From positions 2,108,001 to 2,172,000 of the forward strand of contig CAJVGD010000042.1 in assembly GCA_910890315.1 (NCBI GenBank): a stretch of 64,000 bases of DNA, written 5' to 3'. The notes under the pieces are model-generated. The model searched no databases. It saw nothing but the letters and a program-made list of their open reading frames with translations, and was not told where the DNA came from. Every line of letters starts with the position of its first letter. The stretch's first letter is position 1. The position numbers and the translations under genes are program-made. The stretch is from Serendipita indica DSM 11827. Its lineage: Eukaryota; Basidiomycota; Agaricomycetes; Sebacinales; Serendipitaceae. Below, in pieces: positions 16,990 through 57,671 of the stretch.

Positions 16990-17181
16990 CTGAAGTGGTA
17001 ACGAGTAGCGGAGGACTGAGCTTTGTGTAGATGTAGAGATGTATGGCCCTTATGGGTATTCTAAATCCTCGCCATGATATCTGCATAGTGGACCAATCGA
17101 CCTGGAGTCAGCTACCTGTATTATAATCCCTAGGAATCTCCTCAGAGCTCACACTATTCATCTACATTGTCAGATAACAGA

Positions 17182-23914: not shown

Positions 23915-25847
23915 CTAAAGAGTAGAAAACATCCCCTCGAGCCTCTTTACGGCGTCGGCATCGAGGTTGGTACAATTGACTAGGGAAACGGAGAGGGATC
24001 TCTGTCGTAAGGCGTGGTATCCAGATAGAAAAGTTGACAGGGTTGACTCCTGAACATCGCTGTTTGATATAGTAAGGCTGTGAAGGTTTGGTAGCGAAGC
24101 TTTGTCCGTGGAGAGCGTAGCAAGGACGCTTAGGAGAACTCTTCCATCAAACTGCAAGCATGACACGGCTTGGAAGTGTCTCAAGATAGACGTGTAATGC
24201 GGCTCTTCCTCTCCGTCCTCTCCTTCTTCGCTCGTTAACGGATCCCTCACAAACCAGTTGGCATCAATATCCTCCTCTGCATCTAGCGGTATAGAGAGGG
24301 TAAGATATGAGATCGATTCATTTGTCGAATCTGTATATTGGGCCAGGATATCGTCATCGAAGCGGAATAGATCAGGGTCAGGTTCATCCTGGAGTAGTAG
24401 CGTTAGCCTCGCTAGATGTGGCGCAATAATCCATTTAGAGATTGCTGTATATTGACTGATACTGCAGGTCAAACACTCAAGAGAGGTTGTAGCCTCTTCT
24501 GTGGTCGATTCCAGGTTCATACCGATTGCTACACCTGGAAGTTTCATACATGTAAGCCCTGGCATCATTGAAATCCAATCGACGAGTTCCTCTGAGTATA
24601 AGACAATATTGGAGACGATCAGGGTTTGGAGGTTTGGTAGCTCCTCTGGTCCATCGAATGAAGACATCAATTCGACAATCGTGCTCCTAAGCTCCAGTCG
24701 ATCTATATATGCCAAGGAAGAGAGAAATATCATATACTCCTCGTCATCTGGGTGTGGACCCATTTTGGTCTGGTATCTTGGTGTAATACAAAGTGTTCCC
24801 GCTCGTGGCGCAAAGTCAAGCTCCTCGTCCAACGAAAAGAAGTCACCGAAAGTATAAATGGCTTCATAACATGAGATCCTTTGAGAAAGGTACGAAAATA
24901 GCGTGACGGACCCCTCTAGAGAGCCCGGCTCAGTGCTATATGTGTACATAATTGGCATATATGGTCGGCAGAGAGTGATACAGTGCGCCAAACGAGCACA
25001 TTGTAGCGGAGAGAGTTGATGCCGGTGCGGAATAGCGAGGTAGCGCCAGAGGTTTGATCGAGAAGTGACAATGTTCCGCCAACTCTTGCACACAGTCGAG
25101 AGTTTGAGCGCTTTAAATGGTGGTAATTTGTGCCTTGAACCCTCTATGAACGTCATCTCCTCATCCGCCACTGAAATTTCGAAGATTTTAGCCCATATCT
25201 CCTCGGGAATGATGAGTCGGACGCTAATAATGCGTCTTTTGAGAGAGATGGCATGCGCTCGCTGTTCAATAGATGAGTGAACCATCGTTTTAGATGCTTC
25301 CAAGGTCGCCAGGATTGATATCTCCCCGTCTATATCATCATTGATTATACGGATGCGTTCATCCATTGCCTTCAAATTGCGCGCACCTTTTTCTAGTGCT
25401 GGAGCTACACGTTCATGAGAAGACTTTGCCTCTTCGAGCAAATTGCAATATCTGGTACGCGAGGAATCATCTCCGCCAACGTGAATAGAAGTATCCGGAG
25501 GAACATTGGCAGTCATCGTCTGAATCTCCTCCATGGTCTGTTGGGATTTCTGAATTGCCAGGCGGAGCACCCCGGCAACCCTCAGCGCCTCGCGGCAGTT
25601 GTGAAGCACGCTACGGTGGTACGTTGTCTTCTCCTCCAGCATAGCAAGCTCACGACAAAGACGCGACTGTTCTTCCTTGTCATATTGGATAAGCGATTGG
25701 ATTGCTTTGCGCTCTTGAGGTGTTGGCACCCGATTGGCCACTTGAGTTGGGTGTTCAACACTGGAGGAGTTCGTTTCCGTTTAGAATGTCGAGTTCATCG
25801 GGCGAGAAAATCTCTCACAATGTGTTTTGTGATGCAGTCACTGACAT
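23915..25847 (-). CDS. F-box protein with N-terminal coiled coil, family B, intact
   Basis: A mini-exon (25847-25819) encodes MSVTASQNT and is spliced across a 58-nt intron to a large exon (25760-23915) starting VEHPTQVANRVPTPQERKAI. About 170 residues of heptad-like helix follow (QSLIQYDKEEQSRLCRELAM, later IDGEISILATLEASK). Then comes the F-box core IPEEIWAKIFEISVADEE, with LSTVCKSWRNIVTSRSNLW and LRR-like leucine patterning to the end. About 620 aa. The mini-exon plus NRVPTP block is shared by four other genes in this window. It converges on the preceding F-box gene with only 75 bp between stops. Likely SCF adaptor; substrate unknown. Confidence 0.75.
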
Positions 25848-28147: not shown

Positions 28148-30028
28148 TTACATAATTTCTGAATTCAGAGCTAGTTCCTGCAATCTCTGTATTGCATCCA
28201 GCTCGAGATTGGAGCAGCCCTCGGTGACTAGAGTGAGCCCTTTGTCGTTGATATCCACGAATCCTTCAAGGAAAGATGACAACGTAGACTCCTTGATGTC
28301 ACTATTGGTGATCACCAAGTCCTGGAGGTTTGCGAGCGGAACCTCGGTGGTTGGAAGGTGTTCGAGGAATGCGCCGACTTTCTTGCCGTCGAGCTTCAAA
28401 CACGTGATATGTTCGAAATGCTTGAAGATGAATTGGCATCTTTCTTTGTTCGTCGCTGACAACTCTTCCGCGTCTGAATGTGCTCGAATAGTCAACGACC
28501 GAATCGATTCTGGAGTTTGAATCTCATCGTACTCCTCGTCCTCGTCCTCGTCTTCATCGTCATCGCGTACCCAATAGCTATACCCCGAGAACGATTCATA
28601 TTCCAGAACCAAGTGGTTCACATTGGGGGTGGAGATTGCACGGGAAAGCCGCGGATACTGATCGAGGTCGCACTCCAGCGACTCCACCAGTGCGAGAGTC
28701 GCTTTATCAGACGAGCTACAATCGACCAGTGAAGAACTGAGGAACTTAAGATACTTGAGGCCGGGCATCACTTTGAGCCACTGCCTGAGACAGGAGTGGC
28801 TCATCTCAGCATTTCTAATGTAGAATGAGGTGATGCTTGAGGATACACTGGAATCGTCCAGAGATTTTACTTCTGCTTTATCAATTTCGAGTTGTTTGAT
28901 CTTTTGCAGGATCGACGCTGAGAGATATGTAGCGATCCCATGATCTGAGTATGCAATAATTCGCAGTACGTCTATATTGGGAGATAAATTCTCCAATAGG
29001 CGCCGAAGTGCCGTGCCTCGCCACATCCCAACGTTAGGTGATAGAAGCTCGAGGGTTCCATAGTCTGTGAATGTTCCACGGATAAACTCGATGAAATCCA
29101 CAGGGAAAGATCCTTCCGCAAAGTCGTGGCGGTACGTATAGGCAAGTGGAGAGAGTTTGGACAACCGTTGGGCATAGTAGTTGATTCGATCCTTTTGAGA
29201 AGAGCTAATCTTCATATAGTGTGGAATAGCTACGTATCTCCATAACTTTGGACGGTGCATGATGATCGTTCGCCAATACCTGCAAACGGCCGCAAGTTTC
29301 AGCGTCGGAAGCGGTGGTTTCCCGTTGCGAGCCACTTCTTTGAATCCGAATTCTTCTTCGACTATGACGAGGTGAAATATTTCTTCCCAGATCTCCGCTG
29401 GTATGGCGCGCCTGAAGCTGACGGCGGATTTCTTGACGGAAAGCTGAGTTTTTCTACGCTCAATCGACTCGCGTATACCTCCCTTGGATACCTCGAGCAT
29501 CGAGAGGATGGTCTCCTCCCCTTCTATAGCGAGTTGAATGTCTCGAATGCGAACATCCAGCACTCCAATCTTGTCAGCGATATCTTTCATCTCTGTTGTG
29601 TTCTTTTCCTCTTCGAGTATAGCTTGTTCAACCAAGTGGCGACGTTGAACGCGCGAGACATTCTCGTCGTCAACAGAAAGGACCGCGTCGAGGTCGAGTT
29701 TGCTGAGGGCGGACGAACTTTCCACGGCGGACTGATGCTTCCTTTTGAATGAGGCGTGAAGTGCTTCGGCGACGGCGAGGACGTTGCGATAGTCTCGAAC
29801 CCTGCGTTGCGGCTCATCTACCCTCTTCTCAAGATCCTTCAGCTGACTATGAAGACGAGAGAGTTCGACTTCGTCTTGCTGAATGAGGCGCAAGATCTCT
29901 TTCTGCTCTCGTGCCGTGACAACGCGGTTCGGGGCGCCGCCTAGGCTGTTGACCAGAGTCAATTAGCGAGTAATAGGAGAATATATGAGCCATAATTACA
30001 GCAAAGGTGGTCTCTGAGCCGTTGACAT
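28148..30028 (-). CDS. F-box protein with N-terminal coiled coil, family B, intact
   Basis: A mini-exon (30028-30000) encodes MSTAQRPPL. A 54-nt intron leads to the main exon (29945-28148) starting LGGAPNRVVTAREQKEILRL. A long coiled coil (residues about 20-180) precedes the F-box core IPAEIWEEIFHLVIVEEE, with LAAVCRYWRTIIMHRPKLW. LRR-like leucine patterns follow, with an acidic insert (DDDEDEDEDEEYDE, near residue 470). It ends ELALNSEIM, about 608 aa. Transcribed divergently from the F-box gene starting at 30212, with 183 bp between start codons. Probable SCF adaptor of unknown target. Confidence 0.75.
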
Positions 30029-32955: not shown

Positions 32956-35900
32956 CTAGTATACTCTATCATACACCTCCAGATCTTCTACGTCGGCTCG
33001 AGCACCGTCTTCTTCGCTCCCACTGGCACCAATGACTGAATCTCTGAACCTTGCGTCCCCGCTTCGTTGGCGTCGCAGACTCCGAGGCGACTTTGAGCCT
33101 GTGCTTCCCTGTCTTCCCTTACGAATCGGCGTCCGAGAGCGCGTGAGCTTGGCACCAACAGGCGTTCGAACTTCCTCGTCGCCGACGTGAATGACGTCTG
33201 GTTGATCTGGTGGTTCCATAGGAGAGTAAGGTCGTGGCGGAGAGGAGGCAACTTCTCCCTTGTCCATCTTGTCTCCACTACGAGGCGTGATGACCTGCAG
33301 TTCCGGAACCGAGGCAGGTAAAATGCCAGTAGAGATTGGTGCGGGCTTATGGCCCTCCCTTTTTATACGTGATGACAGGCTTGCACTCGAAAACCGTCGT
33401 GGTACGTCCTCATTTCCAGAGTAAGACGCGCTCGAATCAAAGTCCCCCATGGAGGTCACCCTTACAGGCGACTCGGCCACTTCTCCGCGAACAATAACAA
33501 AACCAGACTTGTGGTCAATGGAACCGTGTTTCTCTATCCTCTGCAAGTCGTCCTCCGAGTTGAGATCGATCGAGTATCTATGGCCTTGGTGCGATGGGCT
33601 GTGTATGCTAGATGTTGATGCTCGGGACGAGCGACTTCCATCACGCGTGGTTGCGGTTGCGCCGGTCGATGAGCGGTATCCGGCTGTCCGTGGATTGGTA
33701 ATGGGCCCGCGCCGAAGTTGAACGACGTGCGATGCACCAGGCGTCACACTATCATCACCACTCTCCATCGACATGGAGAATTGGTCACCAGGTCGTGGTG
33801 TGGGTATGGGAGACGGCGAGGCCCTCCTACTCGTCGATCTCGAGCTCATTCCTGAGCGAGAACCAGAAGGTGTAATGAGCGAGCTAGAATTGAGTAGAAG
33901 AGGCTTTGGGCCTTGCTTTGGTGTGGCCTCTGTTTTTGGTGAGCCAGTCAATGCAGCCAACGCAGCCTGCAATGGACTCTTTGACGCGCTATCGCCCGTG
34001 GATGGAGTTTCGGGACTGATAAGACCGGCGCTGTTGAGGACTGAACCGATCATACTCTCCCTGAATCGCGCAGGCCTCGCTGGAGGGGAGAAAGATTCAC
34101 GCTTGTTGGGCGAGTCGACAGTGGGTCCAGGCCCGCTTTCGGACCCGCTACGTGCAGGTTCCCCAGTGCCAGACATGAGCGATCCCACCAGGGGAAGAGA
34201 ACCGCGTTTTGAAAACATTTCGCTCCAAGAACCAATCGAACTATTCGAAGCCGAGTAGCCTTCTCGAGTGGATTCTCCTCGACCATTTGCCGCCGGCGTC
34301 CCGTCCAAGCTAGCAGAGGGCGAATGTGATCGTGCCATCGACACGGTGTCCTCCTTATCATCCGTCGCCGTCGACTTGCGGCTCCATGCATCCAAAGCCT
34401 TGACGCGCAGATTTTCACTCGTTCTGGAAAGCGCACCTCGCGCCCACGAAGCAGCTCCTTCACCTGTCCACGAGTTCGAAGCACCGCTGTCGCTCATCCA
34501 ATCCAGCGAGCGTTGGTGCTTATGCTGAGGCGACTCGTGCACAATCTCAATCTCTGGATGCTGCTGCTGCATTGTCGGCACGGTGGGTGAAGGTACGGGT
34601 GAAGCGTCAGGCGAGGGTTCAGGCGAATCAAGTTGATTCGTCATGCCCTTCCACACACTTTCTGTGAGTTTCGAGTTCATGAGCGACGAGAGGAAACCAG
34701 CTCCTTGTCCTTCGGTCGACGTTGGGGACGTTACTTTGACCGACGGCGGAGGGAAGGATGGCTTCTTGACAGGCGACGTCCCAGGTGAAGGCGAATTAGA
34801 GCCATCGTCGTCGTCCATGTCGTTGGTGAGTCCCTTCCACGCCATATCTCGTATTCGTCCCAGGCTCGCCACCATTCCACCACTGGGACTTGCCCTAGCA
34901 GAAGTGGAGACTGGCTCCCGTAGCGTCGTCGGACCCAACCGAGGAGGAGCACCGGCCACCTCCAGACCTTGAGGAGCGCCCTCTCGATTCCATCTTCGCC
35001 ACAAACTCCATGCAGTGTCCAACAATCTTTCCGTTCCGCCAAACGAAGCGACGTCATACTCGACAAGCAGTCTCACCACTACGAGGAAGACATTTCCCAT
35101 CCCGCCAGGTGTAAGCGGCTGCGTCCCGTCCGATCGTAGATTCCACTCTGCAACGTGCGGAGAGACAACAGATGCAGTCACTGCACGCTGACTATGACCA
35201 TGTGTAGAGGTGGCAGAAGCCGCCATAGTGGGTGACGCTGGTGTCTTTGGAGATGCAATAGGCGAGTACGTAGAAGGAGAATGGGGAATCTGGATTTCCT
35301 GGGCGGCACGCGTCTGTCGTTTCCAGAACGCGGATAAAGCATGAGTCGTAGTGGCACCTCTGGATGCGAGCGCCGCAGAGTCACTCTGAAAGATGGCGGC
35401 ACGCGCTCGAATGAGCATCGCTGTCCCAAGGATGTAAACAAAGGTCGAGGGTGCCGAGGTAACGCTTTGAGCTGGTGAACGATGCCGCGATGAGCCATGG
35501 AGAGATATCATGGCGTCCCACGTTGTCAAGAGAGCATCGAGCGACAAAGCGTGCGTGAAGAGGGTGGGCACCCATCGGTAGGAATAATACGGCATCTGAG
35601 GATCGAGCCCTTTGCGATTCTATAAAATGAGTCAGATATTGCATACATACTCGAGAGGCCCCACTCACCAAATCCGTCCACAACTCTGCGTCGGCCCATC
35701 TCACCATTCCTGAGAAGCGAATAGGCCACGCCTCGCCTTCATCAACCGTCTCTTCAACAAGCTCACGAACAGATGCCACAAGAGCCTCGGTAAGCCAAAA
35801 CGTCTCCGCCTCGACCTCTTCAAACACCTCGCTGGGGCTCTCACCAGACAAAATGGCAGTCTTTTGTCGTGCACGCCACGCGACAAGGAGCGTGACGGCA

Positions 35901-36908
35901 AAGATGGAAGCGAGGGCGGGCGGTGGTCCCATAGGGAGTGCATGCAATGCATGCAGCGACGAATGCACGTAGAGCATTCGGAGGAGGAACCCTTCGTACA
36001 GTTTGCCATTCCCCAGTTCGCCATTGTGCGAAGAGAGGAGAACCTTTGCGTCTCGTTGTTCTCCGGAATGAGGTGGATCGTCTAGTGTGATGGAAGGAAT
36101 AGGCAACTCGTCGACATCTGTGGGGGGTGATGACGATGAAAGGTCACCTTTGCTCGCCTTGAGCAATACCAACCGCTTGACAACGGCATTCTTCTCCTCA
36201 AACTCGACGTCGTACTTTCCATCGCTTTCCACACTAAGCTCCCGTAGAGCCGTTTTGAGTTCTGGTGGCATGGCGTCGATGTCTCGTGCAAACTGAAGAA
36301 GCACTCGATCCTGTGGAGCAAGTCGTTTCTCCCATGCACCCTCTCCACTCTGGAGATTGCTTCCTACAGGAGGTGGCGAGGCAAGGAGAGCTGCCTGGAT
36401 TTGCCCAACGAGCGCACCGTAGTCGTTGCGTGATTTGGCTCTCGCCGCATGCCACTCTGTCTTGTCCGCCGGCAAGACACTGAGCAGAATACTCCATACG
36501 CTTAGTCGAACCCACTCGGGGGTATTGGCTGGTATGCCATGAGAGCAAAGGAACCGTAGTCGTGGAATATCGATGACGGGAACGGAAGGGTCTATGACTC
36601 CGAGAAACGCATAAGTTCTATTGGATATAAGTATTGGCGAAAGTGAACAACTTAGAGACCGACCGGTCATGAGGCAAAAGATTCGGGGGTGTCCACTCTG
36701 GGAGGTCATGCTTGCCGGAAATCTCGACGAGTGCCGTGTCTACTCGTGTCTGTGTTGGTCGTGCAGGATTCAAATGCGGCACTAGCTTATTTCGTGGATT
36801 GAATGCGCTGCCATCGCTTGCAGAAGAGTACGGACCATTGGTGATATATGCTTGCGAAGTGTCGTTTCCATCGTCAGGTCTGGATATTTCTCCGCCAACG
36901 CTTGATTG
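32956..36908 (-). CDS. Rab-GAP TBC-domain-like protein (TBC1D13/Gyp6-like), divergent
   Basis: Exons about 36908-36664 (5' end uncertain), 36617-35669 and 35619-32956. The TBC start is recognisable (LRFLCSHGIPANTPEWVRLS, VWSILLSVLP). So is the TBC end (EVEAETFWLTEALV, FSGMVRWADAELWTDL, then NRKGLDPQMPYYSYRWVPTL). A serine/proline-rich tail of about 700 residues follows. TBC proteins activate GTP hydrolysis by Rab GTPases through an IxxDxxR arginine finger and a YxQ glutamine finger. Here the corresponding stretch reads QFARDIDAMPPEL without the arginine, and no YxQ was found, so catalysis is doubtful. No in-frame ATG was found in the first inferred exon, so the true start may lie in an upstream exon. 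Confidence 0.7.
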
Positions 36909-37838
36909 AGGGTTAATAGTTCTACGCCATGATTAGCCGACATCCAGACTTTGCGACGGATGAGCATACCGGGGGAATCTATTCGAGACGACGTCGCGAG
37001 GATACCACATATAGCCTCTAATTGCTCCTCATCTAATCGATCTGTACTGAATAGAGTTGGCTGTCAGACTTTCGTATAAATAGACTGCAAGACGCACCTG
37101 TCCGGCAGAGAGCGTCCCTCGATGAGCACATCACAACAGCGTTCAAGCAAACTCATGAGATCGCTCGACTCGTCATCAACAAGCAACTTTTCTGCCTTGA
37201 GCCTCGCAACACTAAGCGCCTTTTCCGCATCCACTTGCAACTTTGCGAGCACCGGATCCGCATCGTGTGTATATCCATCATACACACCCCCAACCACCGA
37301 AGCGCCATATGATGTACGCTGAGATTCATTGCTTCTGGAGTGTGGGTGGGATTGCGGTGGGGGAGGCCCGTACTGGATGAGCTTTGAGCGGATCGAGAGC
37401 TCCAGGCGGAGCGAGGCCGCGACGTCTTTGCGTCCCTTTTCCGAGAGACCATCGAATTTGGCTTGTGCGCGTTGGAGACGCGAGGCGGCTGACCTGTGTA
37501 TCACAAGGGATGGAAATAAACCACGTTCCGATGGATGGAAGACGCGTAATAAGCGAATGTTTCGTTGTAATTTGGGGAAGAATCCGTAAAGCCGCGTTCC
37601 CACATGAATAGCACCCCAAATCCCGATGGATGGATCCCATAAATCATGACGCATAAATGCACAGAAGAATCAAAACCATCAGCAAAATGCTCGCTATTAT
37701 GAAATAAAACCATAGAGGAGAGCGTGGTGTAACGGATGGAACGGCGACGCACAGGAGTAAAGTCTAGGGAGGGTCACGAGTCAGCCATCTGAATGTTTCA
37801 CCTCTTAGATGAACGGTACAAACCTTTATATCAGCCAT
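36782..37838 (-). CDS. Hypothetical protein, about 245 aa, four exons
   Basis: Start MADIK at 37838. Introns were inferred after AAG (37824), after the exon coding TLLLCVAVPSVTPRSPLW, and after SLPD (about 37095). The body contains SAASRLQRAQAKFDGLSEKG, LRLELSIRSKLIQYGPPPPQ and LSVARLKAEKLLVDDESSDL. The last exon gives LDEEQLEAICGILATSSR and ends TLLQAMAAHSIHEIS. Mostly helical and charged, with no signal peptide or membrane segment. I do not recognise the family. Its last 130 bases overlap, in another frame on the same strand, the presumed first exon of the TBC gene. Confidence 0.5.
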
Positions 37839-38088
37839 ACTACTCGCTTGTGTCGTCTGTAAACCAAATCCTACTTGCGCCTGGCGGTAAGTGCACTTGG
37901 AAAAGTAGAGAAGAAGCCGAGATCTGAATATTAAATGGCGTAAAGTCGTAGCGCACCACGGCGCGTTCAAAGGGATCCAAGTCTAGACGTGGTCGAGGTC
38001 GAAGAGTCAAGAAGCAAATGGCACTGCCAAAATCCAATGCGAACCTTGGAGATGCGGCTAACGCGGACCACGCTAGCCATGAAACACG

Positions 38089-39870
38089 AAAGTGTAATGG
38101 ATGGTAGTACAACATGTATTCTCATCATTCGTAATAGCAAATAGCCAAGGCCAGACAACACAAATAGTAAAGGCAGAGAGGAAGGAATAAAACAAGGAGA
38201 GAAACCCCAGTCCATCAAATAGAATAGTCTAGACGCAGTCCATCCTACACAGGTGGAGACAGAACTAGATCTGCGGTCGGAACGACATGATCTCCTCGTA
38301 CAACAGCTCCTTGAGCTGTTCCTTCGAAATAGCATCCTTGTGCAAATCAAACTCGAAAAACTCGGGATCGAGCGGCGGCGCCACGGGTTCGTCGTCGGGG
38401 TCGTGGTACGCCTCGAGATAAGGGTGTGCAAGCGCATCCTCCACGCTAATCCGCTTCTTCGGATCAAACGTAAGTGTCTTCGTCAAGAAATCGACCGCCA
38501 TCGGGCTCGCATTGGGAAACAAGGTGGCAAATGGTCGCTTTTTCCGGAACGGCAAAGCGCGGATATAATCTCGACTTCGTCGGGTGGTAATGGCATAAAA
38601 CTCGTCGAGCGTCGGCGTACCGAGCACATCCAAAATGAGCGTGAGCTGGTGGTGATAGTCTCGTCCAGGGAAGAGTGGCTTGCCGGACAACATTTCGGCG
38701 AGGATGCACCCGACCGACCAGACATCGATGGCTTTGGTGTATTGCTTAAACGTAAGCATAATCTCCGGTGCACGGTACCATCGCGTAGCGACGTATTCGG
38801 TCATGAAGCCCGTCTCAGTACCGCTGGGTTCCGCCGTCTTGACACTACGTGCGAGACCGAAGTCGGCTACTTTCAAGTCGCAGTTGGCGTTGAGGAGCAA
38901 GTTGGACGGCTTCAAATCACGGTGAATGACATCGGCGCTGTGCAGCGCCTTGAGGGCGCGCAGTGTCTGATATATGAAATACTGTGCGTGGTCGTCGGAA
39001 AGATCTTGGGTGCGAATCACACGGTGCATATCCGTCTCCATCAATTCTTGGACGAGGTAAACCTCTTTAAAGGTCTCGATCGACGCAGGCTTGATAATAT
39101 CCAAAACGGAAATGATCTGGAAACAGTCAGCGTTACTCTTTCGATATTATAGAAGAACAACTCACGTTTTCGCTCACACCGGCCTCTGAGAGGAATTTGA
39201 GGAGCTTGAGCTCACGGAGCGTCCGGAGGCAGAACATTGAATGTTCAAATGGTGCAATCTTCTTGATCGCGACCTTGCGACCGGTCGGACGATGAATAGC
39301 AGAGCATACGATACCATATGCACCCTCGCCGACAACATCGAGTACCTGGTACTGCGTGCCTAATAGCCACCCATCCAGCACATCCACAGCAAACAAACGG
39401 GTCCAAATCATCATATAGAAGAAGAAGCAGAGCGAACAAGAGACAATCAGCATCCAGGTTGAAATCCAAGAGGAGAAGAGCTACACACCGACGTTGAAGC
39501 GGACTTTGCGTGGCGCCGATTGGGCCTGGGAAGTAGAATGTCCGTGTTTGCTCTGCTTTGCGGCCGCGGCGTCCTTTGCAGGGGCAGCAGCGGCGGCGGG
39601 TTGTTGTTGTTCAGAAGACATTGAAGGGGATCGATCGTTTCGTCTCGTCAAGAGGAGGATGTGAAAAAGTAGATGAAGAAAGAGGAATAGCTAGATATCA
39701 AGCCAACGGCGCCGTTGGAGGAAAGCCTGGTAGTGGTCGGGTCCAAAGGATGGGCCTCTAGAAAGGGCGAGTAGAAAAGATGGCTATCTAAGGAAGATGC
39801 GTACTGGATACGCTCTGCTTATATGTAGGGCGCGGTGAGAATGCTTATATATCAGGTCACCGCCCCGCCA
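38089..39870. repeat. Direct segmental duplication, copy 1 (MAP kinase unit)
   Basis: Matches about 44212-45990 in the same orientation, offset about 6.12 kb. The match covers the kinase gene, about 180 bp downstream of its stop and about 250 bp upstream of its start. Outside these limits the two places show no visible similarity. Confidence 0.85.
38265..39621 (-). CDS. Fus3/Kss1-type MAP kinase, copy 1
   Basis: Exons 39621-39489, 39359-39166 and 39116-38265 give 392 aa. The N-terminus MSSEQQQPAAAAAPAKD is low-complexity. The kinase domain has the glycine loop GEGAYGIV, VAIKKI, catalytic HRDLKPSN, DFG (here KVADFG), and the activation loop GFMTEYVATRWYRAPE with the TEY dual-phosphorylation site. 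TEY and the overall sequence point to the yeast Fus3/Kss1 class (Pmk1, Cpk1, Ubc3 in other fungi). This class acts in pheromone response, filamentation and infection, downstream of a Ste7-type kinase. The frame is complete. A second copy lies at 44390-45742. Confidence 0.92.
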
Positions 39871-42821
39871 ATACAGCGATCAATGGCTGTTTGAAACACA
39901 ATCTATTGTAGAGGAAGGAAGCATATTCATGGCTAATGCTCTGTTAAATTATGAATAATCTTAGAATCTATGTTGATACCAGGTTTTACTGCTCCGAACC
40001 TGCTCGCTGCCTCAGGAGGTAGTCACCAAAATTGAGGCTATACGGCCAGTTGAGAGGAGGTATCTGTAACGACCTAAACGAATAGTACGCATGATGTCTA
40101 GGTATAAGAAAATGAATAATCAAGGGAATCCAACTTTACCTCAGACGGGGCAGTAAGCAACCGAATGAGGTAAACATCTTCCAACTCCGCCCGACCTCCG
40201 ACACCGTCCAACTTCTCCGTGACGAAGGCACAAGACACACTTGATCAACGTATCACGATATCTCCTCAGATGGCTTCATTGGCAGATTTGTCGCTGCTGC
40301 CTTCTCCTCAAGCTCCAATTCATGAAAAGCTCAATAATGACTCGAATAGGAGACGGACGTGTAATGTAAGAGGTTTCAAGCTCGTCAAAAACCTTGCTTG
40401 GTGCAGGCATAGCATCTATGATCACACTATGGTCAACAGCACGGAATCCTATCCTCCTGAAGGATATCTTGATATTTGATTCGGTAAATTACATCTTTAC
40501 GCTGTATAATACTTTCAGAAAGTCCAGTTTCTCCTCCTCCTGATGGGTGAGCACATAGTGCTCTTAGCACACTCTGCGCAGACACTTTTGAAGGGACTGA
40601 ATAATACGAAAACCAAACCTCGAATTATGTATGTCGAATAAGAGGGATAACCGATGGTTATGATGTTGTTTTGACTGCATACACGAGCAGACCACTCGTG
40701 AGGCGAGAGCCGGGTCCGTCGACGTGCAGGAGGCGTGGACCATCTTTTGCAACATCCTTCGTCGATTCATCAACAATTTTGATGAATTCAAGCCCCAGAG
40801 CAGTGTTCATGTACTCTTTCTCTCAAGAAGGCGAAACCGGATTCGAGCCGACTTACGATTGCGGCGCTACTGAAAGGAGCTCGGATGATGAGACTGCCAG
40901 AGTTCGATGCTTGGGTGAACCATATGTGCATCTTCCCGCCGTCAATAGATTTCCGTGTTGGTAAGTCTTTACGACGGCGGTTTTAGACAACAATCCGACG
41001 AGTATTCGGTTCAATTTAACGCGATACAAAGATAATTTCACCTTCAAAGTTCTTGTCATTAACGCGATATGCAGGTTGTTTCGACGAGAAGCAGAGTTGC
41101 TTCGGCATCTCGTCCTTATCACGTACGTCAATCGCTGTGGGATATTTTCTTGCCCGTTTGTGCCCTCATTCTAGGCTTACTCTTGTTGATAGGTGAGGTA
41201 GGCGATGGGCGGGAGTGGCCTTGGGTGGGATGGTCGGCCCACAACTCCTGCCCTCACCTACCGAGCATTTCATGGGGCGCGATGGGCAGGTAGAAGAATT
41301 TTTCAGCCTCTTCTTTGACGCGCCGGCTCTACTAGCGCGCAAGGTTCATGGGTCATCGCTGTCGCGGAGCATTTCGTTTGGCTTGCCACCTGCTCTTTAC
41401 TCGTCTCCTATACGTAGCCCCGTTGGCTCAATAGGCGGTTATATTGTCTATCATACGTAACGCTATCTCTCCTTAGCCTGCCTCTCGCACCACGGAGAGA
41501 CCTTCGGCCTCCAACCATGATCCGCTTGCGACGGACAACGACTGACAGGAGACGTGAATCCTGTGAACGAACTAATTCTAAGGGACGGTATACTAGTGCA
41601 TCTATCCCTCAATGTGAACGCTGCCTTGAGAACGCCGAGAAAATCGGAGATCACGGACAGCGGGCATGATGAAGGCGGAAGAGGGCTTCAAGGCGTCTGC
41701 AATCCCATCCTTCTATGCCTTAGTTGGACTGGTGTAGAGGTGCGTACGAAATTGCCACTCACCGCCTGTTTCCATAAGTCAGGGAAGCGTAAAGCTCTGT
41801 GTGCATATGTTAATGTCGTTTAGAAGGAGATGATGAAAAGTAGTGAATGAGCGTCTAAATGGACTGCGGATGAAATAGCAGCCTTGGTAATGCCTCGATG
41901 CACTGAAATGTTGACGAGGGTGTCCAATGCACCCTGGAACAATGACTGAAGCTCATTGGACTGCGCGCAGCCTACAATAATGGCGCTCAAAGCTCTATTC
42001 CGTCAGTGCAAGCCCATAGTGGTGGAGAACATAACAGGAGATATGTAAGGTTTCGACAATTTCTCCTCTCTACGTACGTCGAAACCGCAGCCGTGAGACT
42101 CTTTGTCCATTCTATATCACTCTTACCATCCTTCTCCTTACGGCCTCCGTTGTATCTACCCTCGTAGCGACAGCATTACCACATGCCTAGATTTCCCATC
42201 ACTCTTTCCGCGTTGCAACGTTTAACGATGCTATGTAAGACGATATGCGCATGAATTAACTAGCAGAGCCTCCTCTACCCCTCCCACGTCGATAACCTCC
42301 GTCAATAAACGAGTTTAGACTAGTGAATGTTAGTTTACACTAGTGTACATTACATCCGTCACGCCCACGTACAAGTGATTTTCCGCCGTGAATCTACCAG
42401 ATAACTTGAGACACACTACTGAAGAGGTTCAACGAGTTTGTTGCTGTGGTTAACAAAATCTGGATTCCGCGATCCCTAACTTGGATTTTCATCTATTATC
42501 GGGGGATTATTTCCATACTCTTCATTGATTCGTTTCATCCAGATTCTAGGCGAGTGCCCAGAAATGAGTCAACTCTAGACGTAAAGTCAAACGAGCTGAG
42601 CGAAACCGAATTTCTGCCCATTTAGTGCATTTAGTCATTTACTGCATCAAAATACAAGACGCTACATGGGAAAGTTGCTCGATCTTGCTAAGGAGTTGTA
42701 CCTGAGGCCGATGCATGCAGTCACAGCATGGCACATCGCAGAGGATTACAATTGGATTATACTGCCTTGGATCTCGCATGGTTCCTTGTCCCACGTTTGA
42801 AGGGGGTACATCACCATTGCC
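39871..42821. other. Region between MAP kinase copy 1 and the pheromone-like gene
   Basis: About 2.9 kb without a confident gene. Short open frames occur at 40219-40479, 40671-40964, 41069-41293 and 41554-41823. The frame at 41215-41460 reads LPSPTEHFMGRDGQVEEF, which resembles the segment just before the P-loop of some STAND/NB-ARC proteins, but no P-loop follows. Probably decayed sequence. Confidence 0.4.
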
Positions 42822-42828
42822 TATAAAA
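42822..42828 (+). promoter_or_regulatory. TATA box of the pheromone-precursor-like gene
   Basis: TATAAAA lies about 116 bp before the ATG at 42938, followed by a pyrimidine-rich leader with several CAAC/CATC start-like sites. Position and strength fit a highly expressed small gene. Confidence 0.55.
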
Positions 42829-42937
42829 TGCCTGTATACTTTCCTCTCAACATTGTTACCTCATCTCGAGCCCCGCATCCAATCGCAAGCTATCCAACGT
42901 TACAAAGTCTCCATTATCAATCGTATCTTTTGCAACT

Positions 42938-43051
42938 ATGAACTTCTTCACCACTCTTGATCTTTTCTCTGTGCCCGCCACCGAGGAAACCAAAGACCTT
43001 GAGGACGCTGAGGCCGGTGGAGGATGGAATAGTAGCTGTGTCGTCGCATAG
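42938..43051 (+). CDS. Lipopeptide mating-pheromone precursor-like gene, 37 aa, CaaX box CVVA
   Basis: A single-exon frame of 37 codons starting MNFFTTLDLFSVPATEE and ending GGGWNSSCVVA followed by TAG. Basidiomycete pheromone precursors are 35-60 aa and often begin M-x-x-F-x-T/S-L. They carry an acidic or charged processing site and end in a CaaX box, typically CVVA or CVIA, which is farnesylated. All are present: the acidic run KDLEDAEAG, a glycine-rich short mature region with a tryptophan near the cysteine, and CVVA at the extreme C-terminus. A good TATA box lies upstream. The gene is too short for most gene finders and sits between two copies of a pheromone-pathway-type MAP kinase. The pheromone role is an inference from motif and length. 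Confidence 0.75.
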   Translation: MNFFTTLDLFSVPATEETKDLEDAEAGGGWNSSCVVA

Positions 43052-44211
43052 GGAAGCACATCAGCCATTTAGTCTCAATGATCTTCCATGCAGGCAAGCT
43101 TTATACAGTCACTCTTGACCATGTGCTGACAGGTAATTTGCTTTAGTCTCACATGGCCCAGCAAGCCTTTTATCTTCAGAATTTCTACAACTAATGTGGG
43201 ATCTGGTCGACTCTGTGGATATGGCTGGTGGACAGTTAAATAAGGTCATATACGAGACCTGCCTCACACTAGACTCCATTCTCTATTTATAATCCTTGTC
43301 CAAGTTGGAAATGTTCTACATCCATAATTTTATGCCTTCTTGACGGCAATCTATTGGACTCTGTCTGCTTTATTCTCAGTATTGCAATCGACAAAGCGAT
43401 ATTCGCCATGTGAACTTCAGTTTCTCAAATACGAATGAGACTCAAAGAAGAGGGATCGGTCTTGGCATGCCAGCAGTTCTGAGAGAACACTAGGGACTTC
43501 TCATATGAACACTGGCAAAGTGAGTGAGCAAGTTTTGCGCACGTTCGAGGTGATAAGAACGCTGCAGACTGGAGTAGTGGCCTATAATGTACCTATTCTG
43601 TGCCGCTATTTTGATACTGTATTTTAACGAAGTATCGAGCCACCACGCAATCTAGTGCTCTAAATATCTCTCAGTGCTGAGGCAGCTTACATATTTGATT
43701 TTGAAAAACTTCCTAGACCAAGACCGCCATCTTGTTCGACTTTAGGCGTGGTGGTAGGTAAAGATGCAGCTCCTAATGAATTGCAAATAAGAGTTTTTAT
43801 GACGTATTTAGAGTTTCTAGTGCTCTCATTCGTCTTGAACCCTAACACGTGCAAGTCATTGGGTGCAAAAGTTTGCTCTGCCACACCACTGACCAGAAAA
43901 CTGATTGCGCATTCTACCATGAGCACCAAGGCAGGATCACCAGATGAACTCGACATATCCTAGGAATCCTCGACGATACCATACAAAGGTGGGCAGCAGC
44001 GCAGAGAAAACTGCTTGGGAGATATGCAACGAACGCGCCGACGTTATGCACAGAGAACCCATCAGAGACTGGAATGAGACCTTGAATACAGCCATAGTCT
44101 TCGCATGTCTTCATTCATATCTTGCTCAAGCGAGACTCGACAGCGAACAGGCGGCGATTATCCTTGAAGTTAGCATATGGTAGGACACTCAATGATTTGG
44201 GTATACTCATG
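43052..44211. other. Downstream flank with a possible DUF6535-like fragment
   Basis: Mostly non-coding. The frame at 43944-44183 reads AWEICNERADVMHREPIRDW and NETLNTAIVFACLHSYLAQA. That resembles the start of the large Agaricomycete transmembrane family with WNKSLDVxLVFAxLFS (DUF6535), but it ends after 79 codons, about 30 bp before the MAP kinase duplication begins. The match is weak. Confidence 0.3.
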
Positions 44212-45990
44212 TAAAGTGTAATGGATAGTAGTACAGCATGTATTTTCGTCATTCGTAATAGCAAACAGCCAAAATCAAAAAGCACAAAATAGTAAAGGCA
44301 GGGGGCGAAAGAAAAATAAAGAAAGAAAAACCCAGCCTATCAAATAGAACAATCTAAATGCACTCCATCCTGCACAAGTGTAGAAAGAACTAGATCTGCG
44401 GTCGGAACGACATGATCTCCTCGTACAACAGCTCCTTGAGCTGCTCCCTAGAAATATCGTCCTTGTGCAAATCAAACTCGAAAAACTCGGGATCGAGCGG
44501 CGGTGCCACGGGTTCGTCGTCGGGATCATGGTACGCCTCGAGATATGGGTGCGCAAGCGCATCCTCCACGCTGATCCGCTTCTTCGGATCAAACGTAAGT
44601 GTCTTCGTCAAGAAATCGACCGCCATCGGGCTCGCGTTAGGGAACAAGGTGGCAAATGGTCGCTTTTTCCGGAACGGCAAAGCGCGGATATAATCTCGAC
44701 TTCGTCGGGTGGTAATGGCATAAAATTCGTCGAGTGTCGGCGTACCGAGCACGTCCAAAATGAGCGTGAGCTGGTGGTGATAGTCTCGTCCAGGGAAGAG
44801 TGGCTTGCCGGACAACATTTCGGCGAGGATGCACCCTACCGACCAGACGTCGATAGCCTTGGTGTATTGCTTGAAAGTAAGCATAATCTCCGGCGCACGG
44901 TACCATCGAGTGGCGACGTATTCGGTCATGAAGCCCGTCTCGGTACCGCTGGGTTCCGCCGTCTTGACGCTGCGCGCGAGACCGAAATCGCACACTTTCA
45001 AGTCACAATTGGCGTTGAGGAGCAAGTTGGACGGCTTCAAATCACGGTGAATGACATCGGCGCTGTGCAACGCTTTGAGGGCGCGCAGAGTCTGGTAGAT
45101 GAAATACTGTGCGTGGTCGTCGGAGAGATCTTGAGTGCGAATGACACGGTGCATGTCCGTCTCCATCAGTTCTTGGATGAGGTAAACCTCTTTAAAGGCC
45201 TCGATCGACGCGGGCTTGATAATGTCCAAGATGGAAATGATCTAGAAACAATCAGCATGGCGGGTTTGACAGTATAATGAGCCACTCACATTTTCGCTCA
45301 CACCGGCCTCTGAGAGGAATTTGAGGAGCTTGAGCTCACGGAGCGTCCGGAGGCAGAACATTGAATGTTCAAACGGCGCAATCTTCTTGATCGCGACCTT
45401 GCGACCGGTCGGACGATGAACAGCAGAGCATACGATACCATATGCGCCTTCGCCGACAACATCGAGTACCTGGTACTGCGTGCCTAATAGCCACCCATCC
45501 AGCACATCCGCAGCAAACAAGCGGGTCCAAATCATCATATAGAAGGAGAAGCAGAGTGAACAAGAGACGATCAGCCTCCGGATCGAAATCTGAGAGGGGA
45601 AGAGCTACACACCGACGTTGAAGCGGACCTTGCGTGGTGCCGATTGGGCCTGGGAAGTAGAATGTCCGTGTTTGCTCTGCTTTGCGGCCGCGGCGTCCTT
45701 TGCAGGGGCAGCAGCGGCGGCGGGTTGTTGTTCAGAAGACATTGAAGGGGATCGATCGTTTCGTCTCGTCAAGAGGAGGATGTGAAAAAGTAGATGAAGA
45801 AAGAGGAATAGCTAGATATCAAGCCAACGGCGTCGTTGGAGGAAAGCCTGGTAGTGGTCGGGTCCAAAGGATGGGCCTTTAGAAAGGGCGAGTAAAAAGA
45901 TGGCTATCTAAGGAAGATGCGTACTGGATACACTCTGCTTATATGCTAGGGCGCGGTGAGAATGCTTGTCTACCCGCTCACCGCCCCGCT
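44212..45990. repeat. Direct segmental duplication, copy 2 (MAP kinase unit)
   Basis: Second copy of the unit at 38089-39870, same orientation. Both ends stop at similar points: downstream near GTGTAATGGATAGTAGTACA, upstream just past GCGCGGTGAGAATGCTTG. Confidence 0.85.
44390..45742 (-). CDS. Fus3/Kss1-type MAP kinase, copy 2
   Basis: Exons 45742-45613, 45483-45290 and 45241-44390 give 391 aa, one glutamine codon shorter than copy 1. All catalytic motifs are kept (GEGAYGIV, HRDLKPSN, DFG as KVCDFG, TEY in GFMTEYVATRWY). In the large exon amino-acid differences from copy 1 are few and mostly conservative (T/A, V/I, A/C, A/D, K/R), while many third-codon positions differ. That implies purifying selection on both copies. 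Intron positions and lengths agree with copy 1. Confidence 0.92.
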
Positions 45991-46495
45991 ATATCCCACC
46001 TACGCCGCCCCGTCCCACGCCTAGCCGCATGGCTCTGCTGGAAATATTGGGCATGCACATGAAACACACAACTATCAGGTTTCATGTCGAGCATAGCGAC
46101 CATCCACGAGCACACCAATCACAAGAGATAATGCACGAACAATGGTGTATAATCAACTCTGACAACCGTGTAACTAACGTGTACAAAATGGGTAATACTG
46201 TTGGTAACCACCTAGCGACCAGGGGGATCGCCCGTTACCCGCGCAACAGCCATGGGCAATGATGAGCAACACCGCACACATCTCACACCTCAACGGCAAA
46301 GGGTTTCACTTCCGCATCTATTACCAAGTACGTCCAACAGGTGCACAGTGCACGACTATTACAAATCCATATGAGACACCAAGCAGTGTCGGCAAACGAG
46401 CCATAAAACAGATACAACAAAAACTGTATGCATGAGTAGAAGTCGAAGAAAAAAACGATGCGGCTATCCATAGATAGCAAACATATGCACAAGCC
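45991..46495. other. Intergenic region
   Basis: No gene recognised between MAP kinase copy 2 and the 3' end of the GATA factor gene. Short open frames here have no recognisable content. Confidence 0.4.
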
Positions 46496-49400
46496 TTAGC
46501 TCGGAACGGCCTCGCCACTCGCCGACGGTGGGGTCGCCGAGGAAGACGCTCGAGTGCTTTCCGTCGTCGAAGAACCAACAACAAGGCCACTCGACGTCTT
46601 GCGTACTCTCTTCTGACTCGTCAGTACAGCAGACGTATTGCCTAGGCCAGGCGGTGAAGGCCGAAGCTCTGGCAAGTGGGAGTGTGTAGAGCTTGCATTG
46701 GGCGCAAGAGGTCTTGTTCCAGGGAGCTGCGAGGAGCCTCCACTCGCCGCGCCACCAGCCAGCGCCGCAGCGGCCGCTGCCGCCGCCGCGGATGTACTGG
46801 TCAGAGACGTCCGACGTGGATTTGACAATGTACTGGCGCGTGAAAGTGTAGAAGTGGTCGACTTTCGAGACGGATTCGTCAGCGTCGCGCCATTTCGGTT
46901 TCTACAATCCATGTCAACTAAGCGATCCCAGGTCACCCAAAGTAGCGCACCTCTTTTTGATCACGTCCGTTTTCAGCGACAGCGGTCTCGTCACACCATG
47001 GAGTTTCTACACAGCATCAGCCACAATAACTCCCAACAAAAGGAACAAAACTCACAAAGAACAACCCACAGGCATTGCAAAGCGGTTGCCCTTCTGGATT
47101 TCGTCTCCAGAGTGGCGTCGTCGTCGTACTGCAATTCGTGCACATCGTCTGCCCATCATCACCCTCGGGATTCGCTCCCGTCGAGCCACTCTTTTCCGTA
47201 AAGGAAACCTCGGCCTTTTTGTCGCTGGATACAGGCGCAAGGGTCCCACTCGAGCTCTTCTTGCGTGAATGCGAGTTGCCCGCCGCGGCCACCGTACCCG
47301 TCGACGTCCGTCGAGCCGTGTTCCCGCTCACACTCGATCGTCGCGCACCCGAATTTCTATTCCCAGGTGGACCCTCGAGCGTCGAGTTGTTGAGCGAACC
47401 AGGTTCAGAAGACACATTCGACGTCGACGCGCTCTTGCCCGTATTGGCCCGGTTCATCGACGCAGCCGCCGCAGCAGCAGCCATACTCCACTCGGCTGGA
47501 TCACGCATACCAGAAGAACCCAAGAGTGTAGGGTCGACCGTAAACGCAGACGCCGGGGCGCTTCCAGGACCGAGAGGCTGTTGTCCACCGAGATGCGCCA
47601 TCGAGTGCGAGATCGAGTCGCCAGTATAGCTCCCCGTTGGGAAAAAGATGCCACCCGACATGCGCATCCCCATCCCAACCGGGTCAAACGCCTCGTCAAA
47701 CGATCCAGGAGGCACATAGGCACCTCCAGACGCTGCCGTCGCAAATCGTTCTACACTCTCATCAATCGCGGCCGCTGCTGCTGCAGTTGCAATCTCCACC
47801 GTCGGGTCGACGTCTTCTCCACCAAGCCCATACGACTGGAAATCAAACTCGTCGCCCGTCCGTGGTGGAGCTTCGGTGCGAGGATAGGGGAAATCGACAG
47901 GTCCAGTGACAGATGACGTCCTTCCCAGAGAGTGGCCAAATGGAAAGTCGACGCCAGGAATCCCAACGCGAGAAAAGGGTATCGTAGAGGCAATGTCCGT
48001 GTTCATAAACAGGCGATCCGCGTCAGGGAGCGAAAAGGCATAATTGGTATTTGGATATGGACTTGCTGAATCCGTAGTCGACGTCGGCTCGCCACCAAGA
48101 CCAGGAGGATGCGAGAAGAATGCTTGATGGCTATGTAAACCTTCTTCATTGAGTTCACGTCGTTTCTATAAACGGTTAGAAGAGCTCTCTTTTCATATAG
48201 GAATAGAAGTACCGGTGGCTCTGATGGAGGAGGCATTGGCCGTCCATCAATCTGATGTCGCCCCGTGAGATTCTGCGACTCCTCTCCAGCATTCTTCGCA
48301 ACCGTATGATCAAAGCTCGTCTTTCTCACACGCCGGGGGAAACCCTCGGGGAGCGCGCCACGCATCTCGCCCTGCCACTGTCCATCACCCGCCGTCGGAC
48401 TCGCAAGTTGTTGGAACTGATAGAGCGGATGATGATATGCCGGTAAAGACGAAGAGATGAAATCATCAAGCGCAGCCGATACAGCTGGATCAACCGATTG
48501 CGGTGGTTGATGGTCTTGCTGTCCGTTTTCCTCTGCAAACGCAAGTGGCTGGTGAATCGCTGGCTGCGACGCTCTTCGTGCCATAACAGACGGCGGCACT
48601 GGAGCTCCTCCATCGACATCGATCCCTCTCTCCCGCAACGACTCGGTGAGCGTGACGTGCGGAACGACAACACCAGGGGGCGGCGCAAAATGGCCACGGA
48701 AAAAGTCGACACCCGAGCTCGGTGGACTCTCGGAGAACATTTGCAGACTCTTGGTCAAGAGCGACACGCTTGATGGTCCAGGCGGTACAGACCCAACAGC
48801 CTTGCCGACCCCACCTTGTTCCTCTTCTCCGTCCTCTTGTGGCTGAGCAGGTGAAGACGAACTTTTCGGAATCGCAATAGCAGCAGACGGAGCGGCCTGT
48901 TCCTTGTCTGCACCCGTCGTCGACGTCGTCGGTTGTTCAAACGTTTGTGGCTCCCACGTCGCGGGTTCACGAATCCCTCGTCCCATCGACGCAGACTGCA
49001 CGCCCATCGTGAATCCACCCATAAGAGGTTGTTGAGGTGTAAAGCCGGCATTGATCTGGTACGACATATTTCCCATGTTCAACGCCAACGGAGGTCGTGA
49101 TCGCGATCGACTATGCGAGGTAGCACGCCATTCCATTGGCGCACGCGACCGCGACCGCGACGCAGCACGCCAATCCATGCCATCTCTATTTTCCCCCATT
49201 AACACACTTTCCCCACATATGAGAATAGAAAAACACATACGCAATGTCATCCGCCTCTTCTTGCCCAGGACTTCCGTCCGCGGTATGAAACCCTTCAACG
49301 CGCATCTTTGCCTTTCGTCCTTTATCCACCGCCCTTCCACGCTCATCCTCTGACCCAGGCGAAAGCATCGTCTTCTTCTCCACACGCATCTTTGTCTGCT

Positions 49401-55863: not shown

Positions 55864-57671
55864 ATGAGTTCCTCGACGTGAGTAGGCTTCTGTGCTGAAC
55901 ACCATGACCCAACTTCTCCTAGTATCCAACCAACGAATCGCGTTCCTACTCTCAGAGAGCGCGCAGAGATTCGACATCTTATCAATCAAGATCAAGAAGA
56001 CGTCGTGCGCCTTACAAACACCTTGGAGACGCTAGAAAAAAAGTCTATTGCGCAAAAAGGATTCATACACAACTATGAAGAGGCGCTCGCGATTGCCGAA
56101 GCCATGCGCCGGGTTGCGGAGAAAACGCGCGATGTCATGGCCGAAAGCGAGAATATGCTCCAGCCACACGATGCGGACACTTCTGTCAAAAGTGAGGGAC
56201 AATCTTATCACAAACACCAACGCCTGTTCCGTGACGCTCAGGCCACGAGGCGAAGCGCCGTCGAAGAGGCGCAAAAGGCCACTAGAAAGATTGCTGAGAT
56301 GGATGCATCGATCAGAGATATCCAGCAAGAGATCAAGGGCGAGCAATCGGTTCTGGCCGTGCTCGAGATGTCAATGCAAAGCACCATTACTTCGATTGAG
56401 CGGGTAAAAGCTGATATCGCCCTTAAAGAGGCGGTGATCAGTGCACGGCATTTTGTCCCGGTCGAGATTTGGAGAGATATATTCTCCTTCAGAGTGTCCG
56501 AGGATGAAGCCTTGTTTTATGATAACAAACGCAAAGGTATTCCTCCATTTACGGCTTTGAAACTCTCAGCTGTGTGCCGGTATTGGCGAGATATCGTCAC
56601 GAGCTCTGCAGAGCTATGGAAATACATAGCGGTTCCTCATCATGATCGCATCACCGTCGGTCAACGGGATCGCATTACGTACTATCATAATCAATGCACG
56701 CCCCTACTCCCAGAGGTTTATACCTACTATCACGCATGCGACGGCATCCCGTAAAGGTCAATCTCGTCACCTTTATGCGGGAAACATTTGCGGAGTACCA
56801 AACTCTCGACATGTTTATTCACGCATTCAGTCTTATGCGTGGCCCAAGCCTTCGCAGCTTTCTGGAATTATTGTCACCGAAAGCAAACATCTTACAGTTG
56901 TCCGGCATCCACAATCCCGGATACACTTTCGACATTGCTGTAGACAGTATTCGCTACGTTAAGCATCTGAAGATAACCAACAAACCAGTTTCTATAGCCG
57001 AGCCATCTCATGGTGCGCCCACTATACCCCTTATATCTTTTACTCTCGACAGCATTACGCTGAATGAGAGTCTGTTCACTGGCTCTTTATCATCAATGAG
57101 TCATCTTGAACGCCTATACTTGGTCAATGTCACGCTCAATATTGAAGGTCCAATCATCAGTGTCACAATGCCCGCACTGAAGCATCTAACATGCGATTTA
57201 CATATCTATCCGACTATATCTAGGTTCATAACATCTCCAAGACTGGATGATCTTACTCTGGTCATCAAGCCTATGGAAGATTCGACCATGCGCGACTTTG
57301 ATGAATGGCTAGGTCGCGGGGGCGAGAGGCATCCGCATATCCACAATCTCACTCTCCAGGCATTACATTCGGAAGAGTTTGAGATCAGAAATCTTGACGA
57401 TACGGTCCTCGATCACTTCCCTGACGTAAAACATTTACGCCTCTCCGGTACCACTCCAAGCTCTAACCTCCTTTCATCACCCACGAGCGTCAATTCACTC
57501 GCACATATAATGGTACTGACCGTCATCGGTAGTGCGATCAGTGAAGAGGAACTCGCTTCCTTTATGCGGGGATTCGCTGCGTTGCATGGAAGAACGCCCA
57601 AATTGGCCGTTCTAAACTGTAGCAATCTCAATATTCAGGCCATTGCGAGGCTCCAGAATCAGCATTACTAA
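55864..57671 (+). pseudogene. F-box coiled-coil gene, family B, with one frameshift
   Basis: A mini-exon (55864-55877, MSSS) and a 45-nt intron precede the main exon from 55923 starting TIQPTNRVPTLRERAEIRHL. Coiled coil, F-box core (VPVEIWRDIFSFRVSEDEAL, LSAVCRYWRDIVTSSAELW) and LRR-like parts match the upstream tandem paralogue. Between about 56735 and 56760 the frame shifts once, from LLPEVYTYYHACDGIP to VKVNLVTFMRETFAEYQTL. The rest is open to LQNQHY. With a single 1-2 base difference this could be a young pseudogene, a truncated protein of about 280 aa or a consensus error. Confidence 0.7.

Follow-up and report, generated by a model that had tools for sequence, protein, structure and literature searches.

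A pheromone-precursor gene between two copies of a Fus3/Kss1-class MAP kinase gene in Serendipita indica, likely a chance neighbourhood made by duplication

Introduction

Paired Fus3/Kss1 kinases, paralogs of one pathway kinase, are present in yeast (FUS3 and KSS1) and in Ustilago (Kpp2 and Kpp6). Pheromone genes have been described both close to other parts of the mating cascade and apart from it. The pheromone/receptor locus of the tremellomycete Cryptococcus heveanensis, as described in PMC2873909, links a pheromone gene to STE11, STE20 and STE12. The account given for Agaricus bisporus is one of scattered precursor genes, three of four of which flank a transposon-rich island, and its authors doubt a role in mating (PMC8305134). 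The same source names ER, DR, EH, NH, EE and DE as charged processing dipeptides of pheromone precursors.

For Serendipita indica, the genome paper (PMC3192844, 2011) reports 24.98 Mb and 2.6 SNPs per kb, with haploid nuclei in what is likely a heterokaryon, and gives sexual reproduction as not detected; the word 'pheromone' does not occur in its main text. A resequenced assembly is described in PMC8385953. Our literature search, which covered titles and the starts of abstracts, returned nothing pointing to S. indica pheromone genes, and a search for pheromone, Fus3 MAP kinase and tandem duplication in basidiomycetes found no report.

Here we describe a stretch of 64,000 nucleotides from S. 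indica DSM 11827 (the window; C40:2108001-2172000, contigs being numbered with a C), together with searches of the genome to which it belongs (24.7 Mb, 55 contigs). A pheromone-precursor gene lies in it between two copies of a Fus3/Kss1-class MAP kinase gene. The first-pass annotation of this DNA had suggested that such linkage could define a mating-type-like or self-signalling locus. We consider it likely that duplication brought these genes together by chance, leaving the pheromone gene and the kinases as incidental neighbours.

Results and Discussion

A duplicated kinase gene

Two intact Fus3/Kss1-class kinases with TEY loops had been reported in direct repeat about 6.1 kb apart, and our gene models and alignments agree, with a distance of 6,124 bp (Table 1). 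Both genes have three exons with GT-AG introns and encode 392 (copy 1) and 391 (copy 2) residues. The kinase-bearing units of 1.78 kb are 92.5% identical over 1784 columns, with a start-to-start spacing of 6121-6125 bp. Seven substitutions and one indel separate the two proteins, and the gene pair has a dN of 0.0089 and a dS of 0.224 (ratio 0.04). No third close copy appeared in a whole-genome protein search, in which the next match, on C10, reached 67% identity over its largest piece. Divergence along the unit is uneven (5' flank 3.3%, intron 1 9.3%, intron 2 29%, 3' UTR 21%), a pattern that gene conversion or a kept promoter could produce.

Among solved relatives, yeast FUS3 is the best match to copy 2 (E 1.3e-136), and a protein-database search with copy 2 returned 3473 proteins at E up to 1e-100. 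Among the 120 matches listed are basidiomycete Pmk1/Kpp2-type kinases, a kinase of Serendipita sp. 399 at 95% identity over the whole query, further homologs at 96-97% identity that cover 90-95% of it, and many basidiomycete proteins at 93-97%. Judged by kinase domain, TEY activation loop and best match, this is a gene of the Fus3/Kss1 class. Anyone deleting 'the' Fus3/Kss1 homolog in S. indica faces two genes.

Table 1 Features of the locus, in window positions, with the way in which each was identified.
Feature	Position	Strand	Basis
MAPK copy 1 (Fus3/Kss1/Kpp2 class)	38265..39621	minus	spliced gene model, family search
MAPK copy 1 exons	39489-39621, 39166-39359, 38265-39116	minus	
MAPK copy 2	44390..45742	minus	spliced gene model, family search
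MAPK copy 2 exons	45613-45742, 45290-45483, 44390-45241	minus	
Duplicated unit, copy 1 (gene with 5' and 3' flank)	38089..39868	none	self-alignment
Duplicated unit, copy 2	44213..45989	none	self-alignment
Dispersed repeat fragment; copies on C16 and C14	40072..40255	none	genome search
Segment shared with the C5 pheromone array (C5:11444-15161)	40821..43739	none	genome alignment
Dispersed repeat; copies on C10, C12, C27, C29, C16 and others	41098..41520	none	genome search
Dispersed repeat of ~284 bp; at least 20 further copies	42044..42327	none	genome search
TATAAA, 116 bp upstream of the precursor ATG	42822..42827	plus	read by eye
Pheromone precursor gene, 37 codons, CaaX box CVVA	42938..43051	plus	frame scan and paralog matches
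DUF6535-family gene fragment, 89% identical to C5:1652598-1653012	43744..44156	plus	genome and Pfam search

The two kinase copies are not equally typical of their class. At every one of the seven substituted sites, copy 2 carries the residue that is commonest among the 120 listed homologs (of 3473), and copy 1 carries one that is rare among them (I66 in 6 homologs, V113 in 2, T124 in 0, V131 in 2, A193 in 7, A371 in 0 and K374 in 2), and each of the 120 differs at more sites from copy 1 than from copy 2. By these counts, copy 1 is the derived copy and copy 2 the conserved type. The DFG-1 residue is Ala193 in copy 1, encoded in its largest exon (38265-39116), and Cys in copy 2; 113 of the 120 listed homologs have Cys and seven have Ala. 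The alanine need not harm copy 1, because seven other homologs carry it as well. Covalent resorcylic-lactone kinase inhibitors attack the DFG-1 Cys, and copy 1, with Ala in its place, might be less sensitive to them.

The pheromone-precursor gene and its relatives

Between the kinases, on the opposite strand, stands the 37-codon frame ending in CVVA that had been annotated as pheromone-precursor-like, a description that our searches bear out. Its translation is MNFFTTLDLFSVPATEETKDLEDAEAGGGWNSSCVVA. The frame combines the short length of a precursor with a C-terminal CaaX box. A six-frame genome search with it gave eight sites with E up to 10, one of them the frame itself. The best paralog, C5:14353 in a pheromone array near the start of that contig, matches the whole frame at 95% identity (E 1.3e-17) and is followed by C7, C5:10891 and C16:475219, these three at E 1e-4 or better; there is also a partial match at C5:354. 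Apart from these, C40:686972 gave a weak match (E 0.24). Conservation of start, frame and CaaX box, proposed earlier as a check in related strains, is seen among these paralogs of the same genome.

Our CaaX scan of 254 kb (the window and 20 fetched stretches) recovered 20 short frames, two of them in the window, and 12 of the 20, the window's precursor included, look like precursors. A CaaX ending alone is weak evidence, because the other eight scanned frames are not precursor-like and the second short CaaX frame within the 64-kb window is unrelated to the precursor. The scanned DNA thus holds 12 intact precursor-type frames, the window's and 11 relatives, with five full frames at C5:10.9-42.7 kb. 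All 12 share the first Met and a terminal C-x-V-A, and pN is lower than pS in 45 of the 45 pairs among the ten precursors outside C13. A profile built from the 12 frames matched five proteins at E at most 1, from 12 candidates, all of S. indica DSM 11827. Four of these are identical in every letter to frames of the genome (C7:11874, C16:471107, C16:472736 and C13:901321), while the fifth corresponds to the C16:475213 frame's final 25 residues. These matches point to S. indica or a closely related strain and away from Rhizoctonia, the genus that the first-pass mention of anastomosis groups had suggested; the kinase does not settle the matter, since 93-97% matches to it occur in many basidiomycetes. 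The one that UniRef names Pheromone (E 6.4e-10) is the C13 frame, itself a row of the profile, and its match is therefore partly built in. On these matches, the small frame is homologous to recognised precursors, and it is very probably a real lipopeptide-pheromone precursor.

The C13 frames are the most divergent of the 12. The query with the small frame reached precursors on C5, C7 and C16 only, and the C13:901 frame, used as a genome query, found nothing but itself. Pfam gave no family for the small frame at E up to 1 and, for eight of its 11 paralogs, one weak Mfa1 match (E 0.01, below cut-off). The ER processing dipeptide is absent from the 37 residues; EE occupies residues 16-17, 17 residues before the CaaX Cys, the distance stated for ER being 10-15 (PMC5473757). 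At an upstream distance similar to that of the TATAAA element, an ATAAAA core was read by eye in eight of the ten precursors outside C13. As a separate observation, the start of C5 (C5:1-6321) aligns inversely with C7 (6000-12341) for 6.4 kb at 83% identity, and a pheromone frame of C7 lies within the match. The two would be either paralogous arrays or very old haplotypes, with a divergence far above the 2.6 SNPs per kb of PMC3192844.

Receptors and a candidate mating locus

A STE3 family search of the genome gave 17 matches at seven places: C36, C43, two on C1, two on C13, and C40:232 kb. The C36 and C43 regions are near-identical (99.4% over 9.8 kb) and are perhaps two haplotypes; counted once, they bring the distinct receptor loci to about six. 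None was found on C5, C7 or C16, which are home to most of the precursors. A STE3-type receptor just outside the window had been suggested as something to look for, and the family search found none beside the pheromone gene: C40 has matches only at 232-233 kb and the gene lies at 2,150.9 kb, about 1.9 Mb from this nearest receptor on the contig. Precursors at 901.3 and 903.6 kb on C13 lie beside STE3 genes that begin at 904.0 and 910.1 kb, and this region (901-911 kb) is the natural candidate for a pheromone/receptor mating locus. With 12 precursor-type frames, about six receptor loci and a candidate locus, cryptic sex or pheromone signalling in S. indica becomes directly testable. Just before the STE3 gene of C40, we also observed a tandem array of four related genes (C40:226.4-230.5 kb) with CaaX-like ends, small-GTPase-like as judged by eye.

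The spacer and the rest of the window

The segment that the spacer shares with the C5 array is about 2.9 kb long and about 88% identical. It is continuous from 41146 to 43739 (C5:12580-15161, 87.6% identity) and gapped at its left end, where short pieces extend the match to 40821 (C5:11444). Since both copies of the segment carry the 41098-41520 repeat (matched from 41146) and the 42044-42327 repeat, the latter MITE-like by its size and copy number, the copying probably came after the repeat insertions. The C5 array would be the likelier source, because it holds more precursors (five full frames). Five bases beyond the right end of the segment begins the DUF6535 fragment (413 bp), whose PF20153 match (E 1.7e-4) scores 21.9 bits, just under the Pfam cut-off of 23.9.

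Noncoding sites differ at 71 of 599 positions in the kinase pair and at 261 of 2443 in the shared pheromone segment (Fisher P 0.42), and the four-fold sites of the kinases (25 of 184) compared with the same segment give P 0.22. The two duplications look about equally old, and one joint event is possible. A kinase duplication clearly older than that of the pheromone segment was considered and rejected, as the site counts do not separate the ages.

The window has 37 long open frames, of which 20 and then three more were scanned for families; two others are antisense to the kinases. The families found are a reverse transcriptase with endonuclease, F-box-like, WD40, DUF7727, GATA zinc finger and an AreA-type GATA domain, along with a sub-cut-off Ist1 match, and no further mating-pathway gene is among these 23 of the 37 frames. 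F-box-like frames occur at 20630-21832, 23918-25780, 28151-29962 and 55882-56751, three above the Pfam cut-off and one just below, which suggests a local family. At 14191-17049 stands a non-LTR retroelement-like frame that carries domains for an endonuclease and a reverse transcriptase. An inverted repeat of 1,174 bp, 99% complementary (2165-3338 and 8604-9777), is bracketed by tandem-repeat arrays at 1-995 and 10911-12760, the second of which codes WD40 repeats.

Origin of the locus

In the account that we favour, a Kpp2/Fus3/Kss1-type MAP kinase gene was duplicated locally with its flanks, and a piece of the C5 pheromone array (11.4-15.2 kb) would have been copied into the kinase spacer, where it abuts the DUF6535 gene fragment and has dispersed repeats within and beside it. 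The small gene would yield a precursor of 37 aa, which after farnesylation at its CVVA box and trimming would leave the cell as a lipopeptide and may act on a STE3-type receptor encoded elsewhere. From what is known of the pathway, both kinases would work in the common cascade below such receptors, irrespective of where the receptor genes lie. The linkage adds nothing needed, because kinases act downstream of receptors at any gene position, and we found no tie between ligand and kinases other than position.

It is also conceivable, if unlikely, that the small gene is a decaying passenger, brought in by the segment and now either silent or no longer functional. Its location in a copied, repeat-rich spacer would fit this, as would its absence from the protein database, where five S. 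indica relatives but not this frame were found, although annotation pipelines often miss such genes (in the account of PMC5473757, a CaaX script was needed to find about half of them). Compared with its C5 sister, the frame has eight substitutions, five of them silent, and no indel; the protein changes at two positions of the tail (W30V and S33G). We judged selection by codon position and simulation, the flank comparison being weak: identity to C5 is not significantly higher in the frame (106 of 114 sites) than in its flanks (Fisher P 0.27), and 64 of 496 windows of the same length match C5 as well. Eight random, neutral substitutions leave start, frame and CaaX box intact in 47% of simulations, as a passenger would allow, but they change two residues or fewer in only 0.7% of 20,000, and the TATA element is kept. 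The pheromone gene is intact and, on this evidence, probably functional.

We regard as very unlikely a selected ligand-kinase unit, whose linkage is kept because pheromone signalling, autocrine or between nuclei, is useful to a heterokaryon in which sex is not known. Such a unit would be consistent with the small frame and both kinases being intact and apparently constrained, with duplication ages that are indistinguishable, and with the last ten residues of the frame, GGWNSSCVVA, which equal those of the C16:475213 precursor and differ from those of the C5 sister; two genetically distinct haploid nuclei have moreover been inferred for S. indica in PMC3192844. The receptor search, which found none nearby, and the make-up of the spacer as a copied array fragment with dispersed repeats argue against it, and our simple scan for HMG-core/PRE-like motifs upstream of precursors and kinases gave no consistent pattern and no shared promoter motif. 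The mating-type-like or self-signalling locus that had first been proposed is not supported, given the same receptor and spacer evidence and the separate C13 locus. Remoter still is an elaboration in which the captured ligand gene between duplicated output kinases would make up a self-signalling module that this heterokaryotic root endophyte inherits, and the derived copy 1 (DFG-1 Ala, rare residues at seven of seven differing sites) would be specialised for that branch.

Least probable of all is an assembly artefact, a concern raised at first pass, in which two haplotypes of one kinase locus were joined end to end. In its favour, PMC3192844 describes S. indica as heterokaryotic and some of its highly polymorphic regions as having been assembled separately, and the assembly retains the near-identical C36/C43 pair. 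After a haplotype join, however, the two left flanks should resemble one another, as should the two right flanks, whereas both pairs are unalike save for one 20-base chance hit. Each outer flank (34000-38088 and 45990-49000) is present in the assembly a single time, and a divergence of 7.5% is more than the reported average of 2.6 SNPs per kb.

Comparison with known systems

Read as a chance neighbourhood made by duplication, the locus can be set beside several described systems. Like FUS3/KSS1 of yeast and Kpp2/Kpp6 of Ustilago, the kinases of the window are paralogous versions of a single pathway kinase within the same genome; unlike those pairs, they are 98% identical in protein and nearly tandem. 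The precursor resembles the Rhizopogon B-locus precursors described in PMC5473757 in being a short frame with a terminal CaaX box, of a kind that often goes unannotated, and differs from them in having no ER dipeptide and in not lying beside a receptor.

As in A. bisporus, the precursor gene is unlinked to any receptor (PMC8305134); that account, in the part on which we draw, mentions no MAP kinase neighbour, whereas the window gene lies between two kinase copies. The likeness to C. heveanensis is the physical linkage of a pheromone gene to components of the pheromone cascade (PMC2873909). The C. heveanensis locus, however, has a STE3 receptor and allelic divergence and the S. indica window has no receptor, and the linked parts named there do not include a Fus3/Kss1-type MAPK, 'MAP kinase' and 'CPK1' occurring zero times in the main text of that source. 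Each half of the S. indica arrangement thus has a known precedent, scattered precursors in A. bisporus and cascade-linked pheromone genes, with a receptor, in C. heveanensis.
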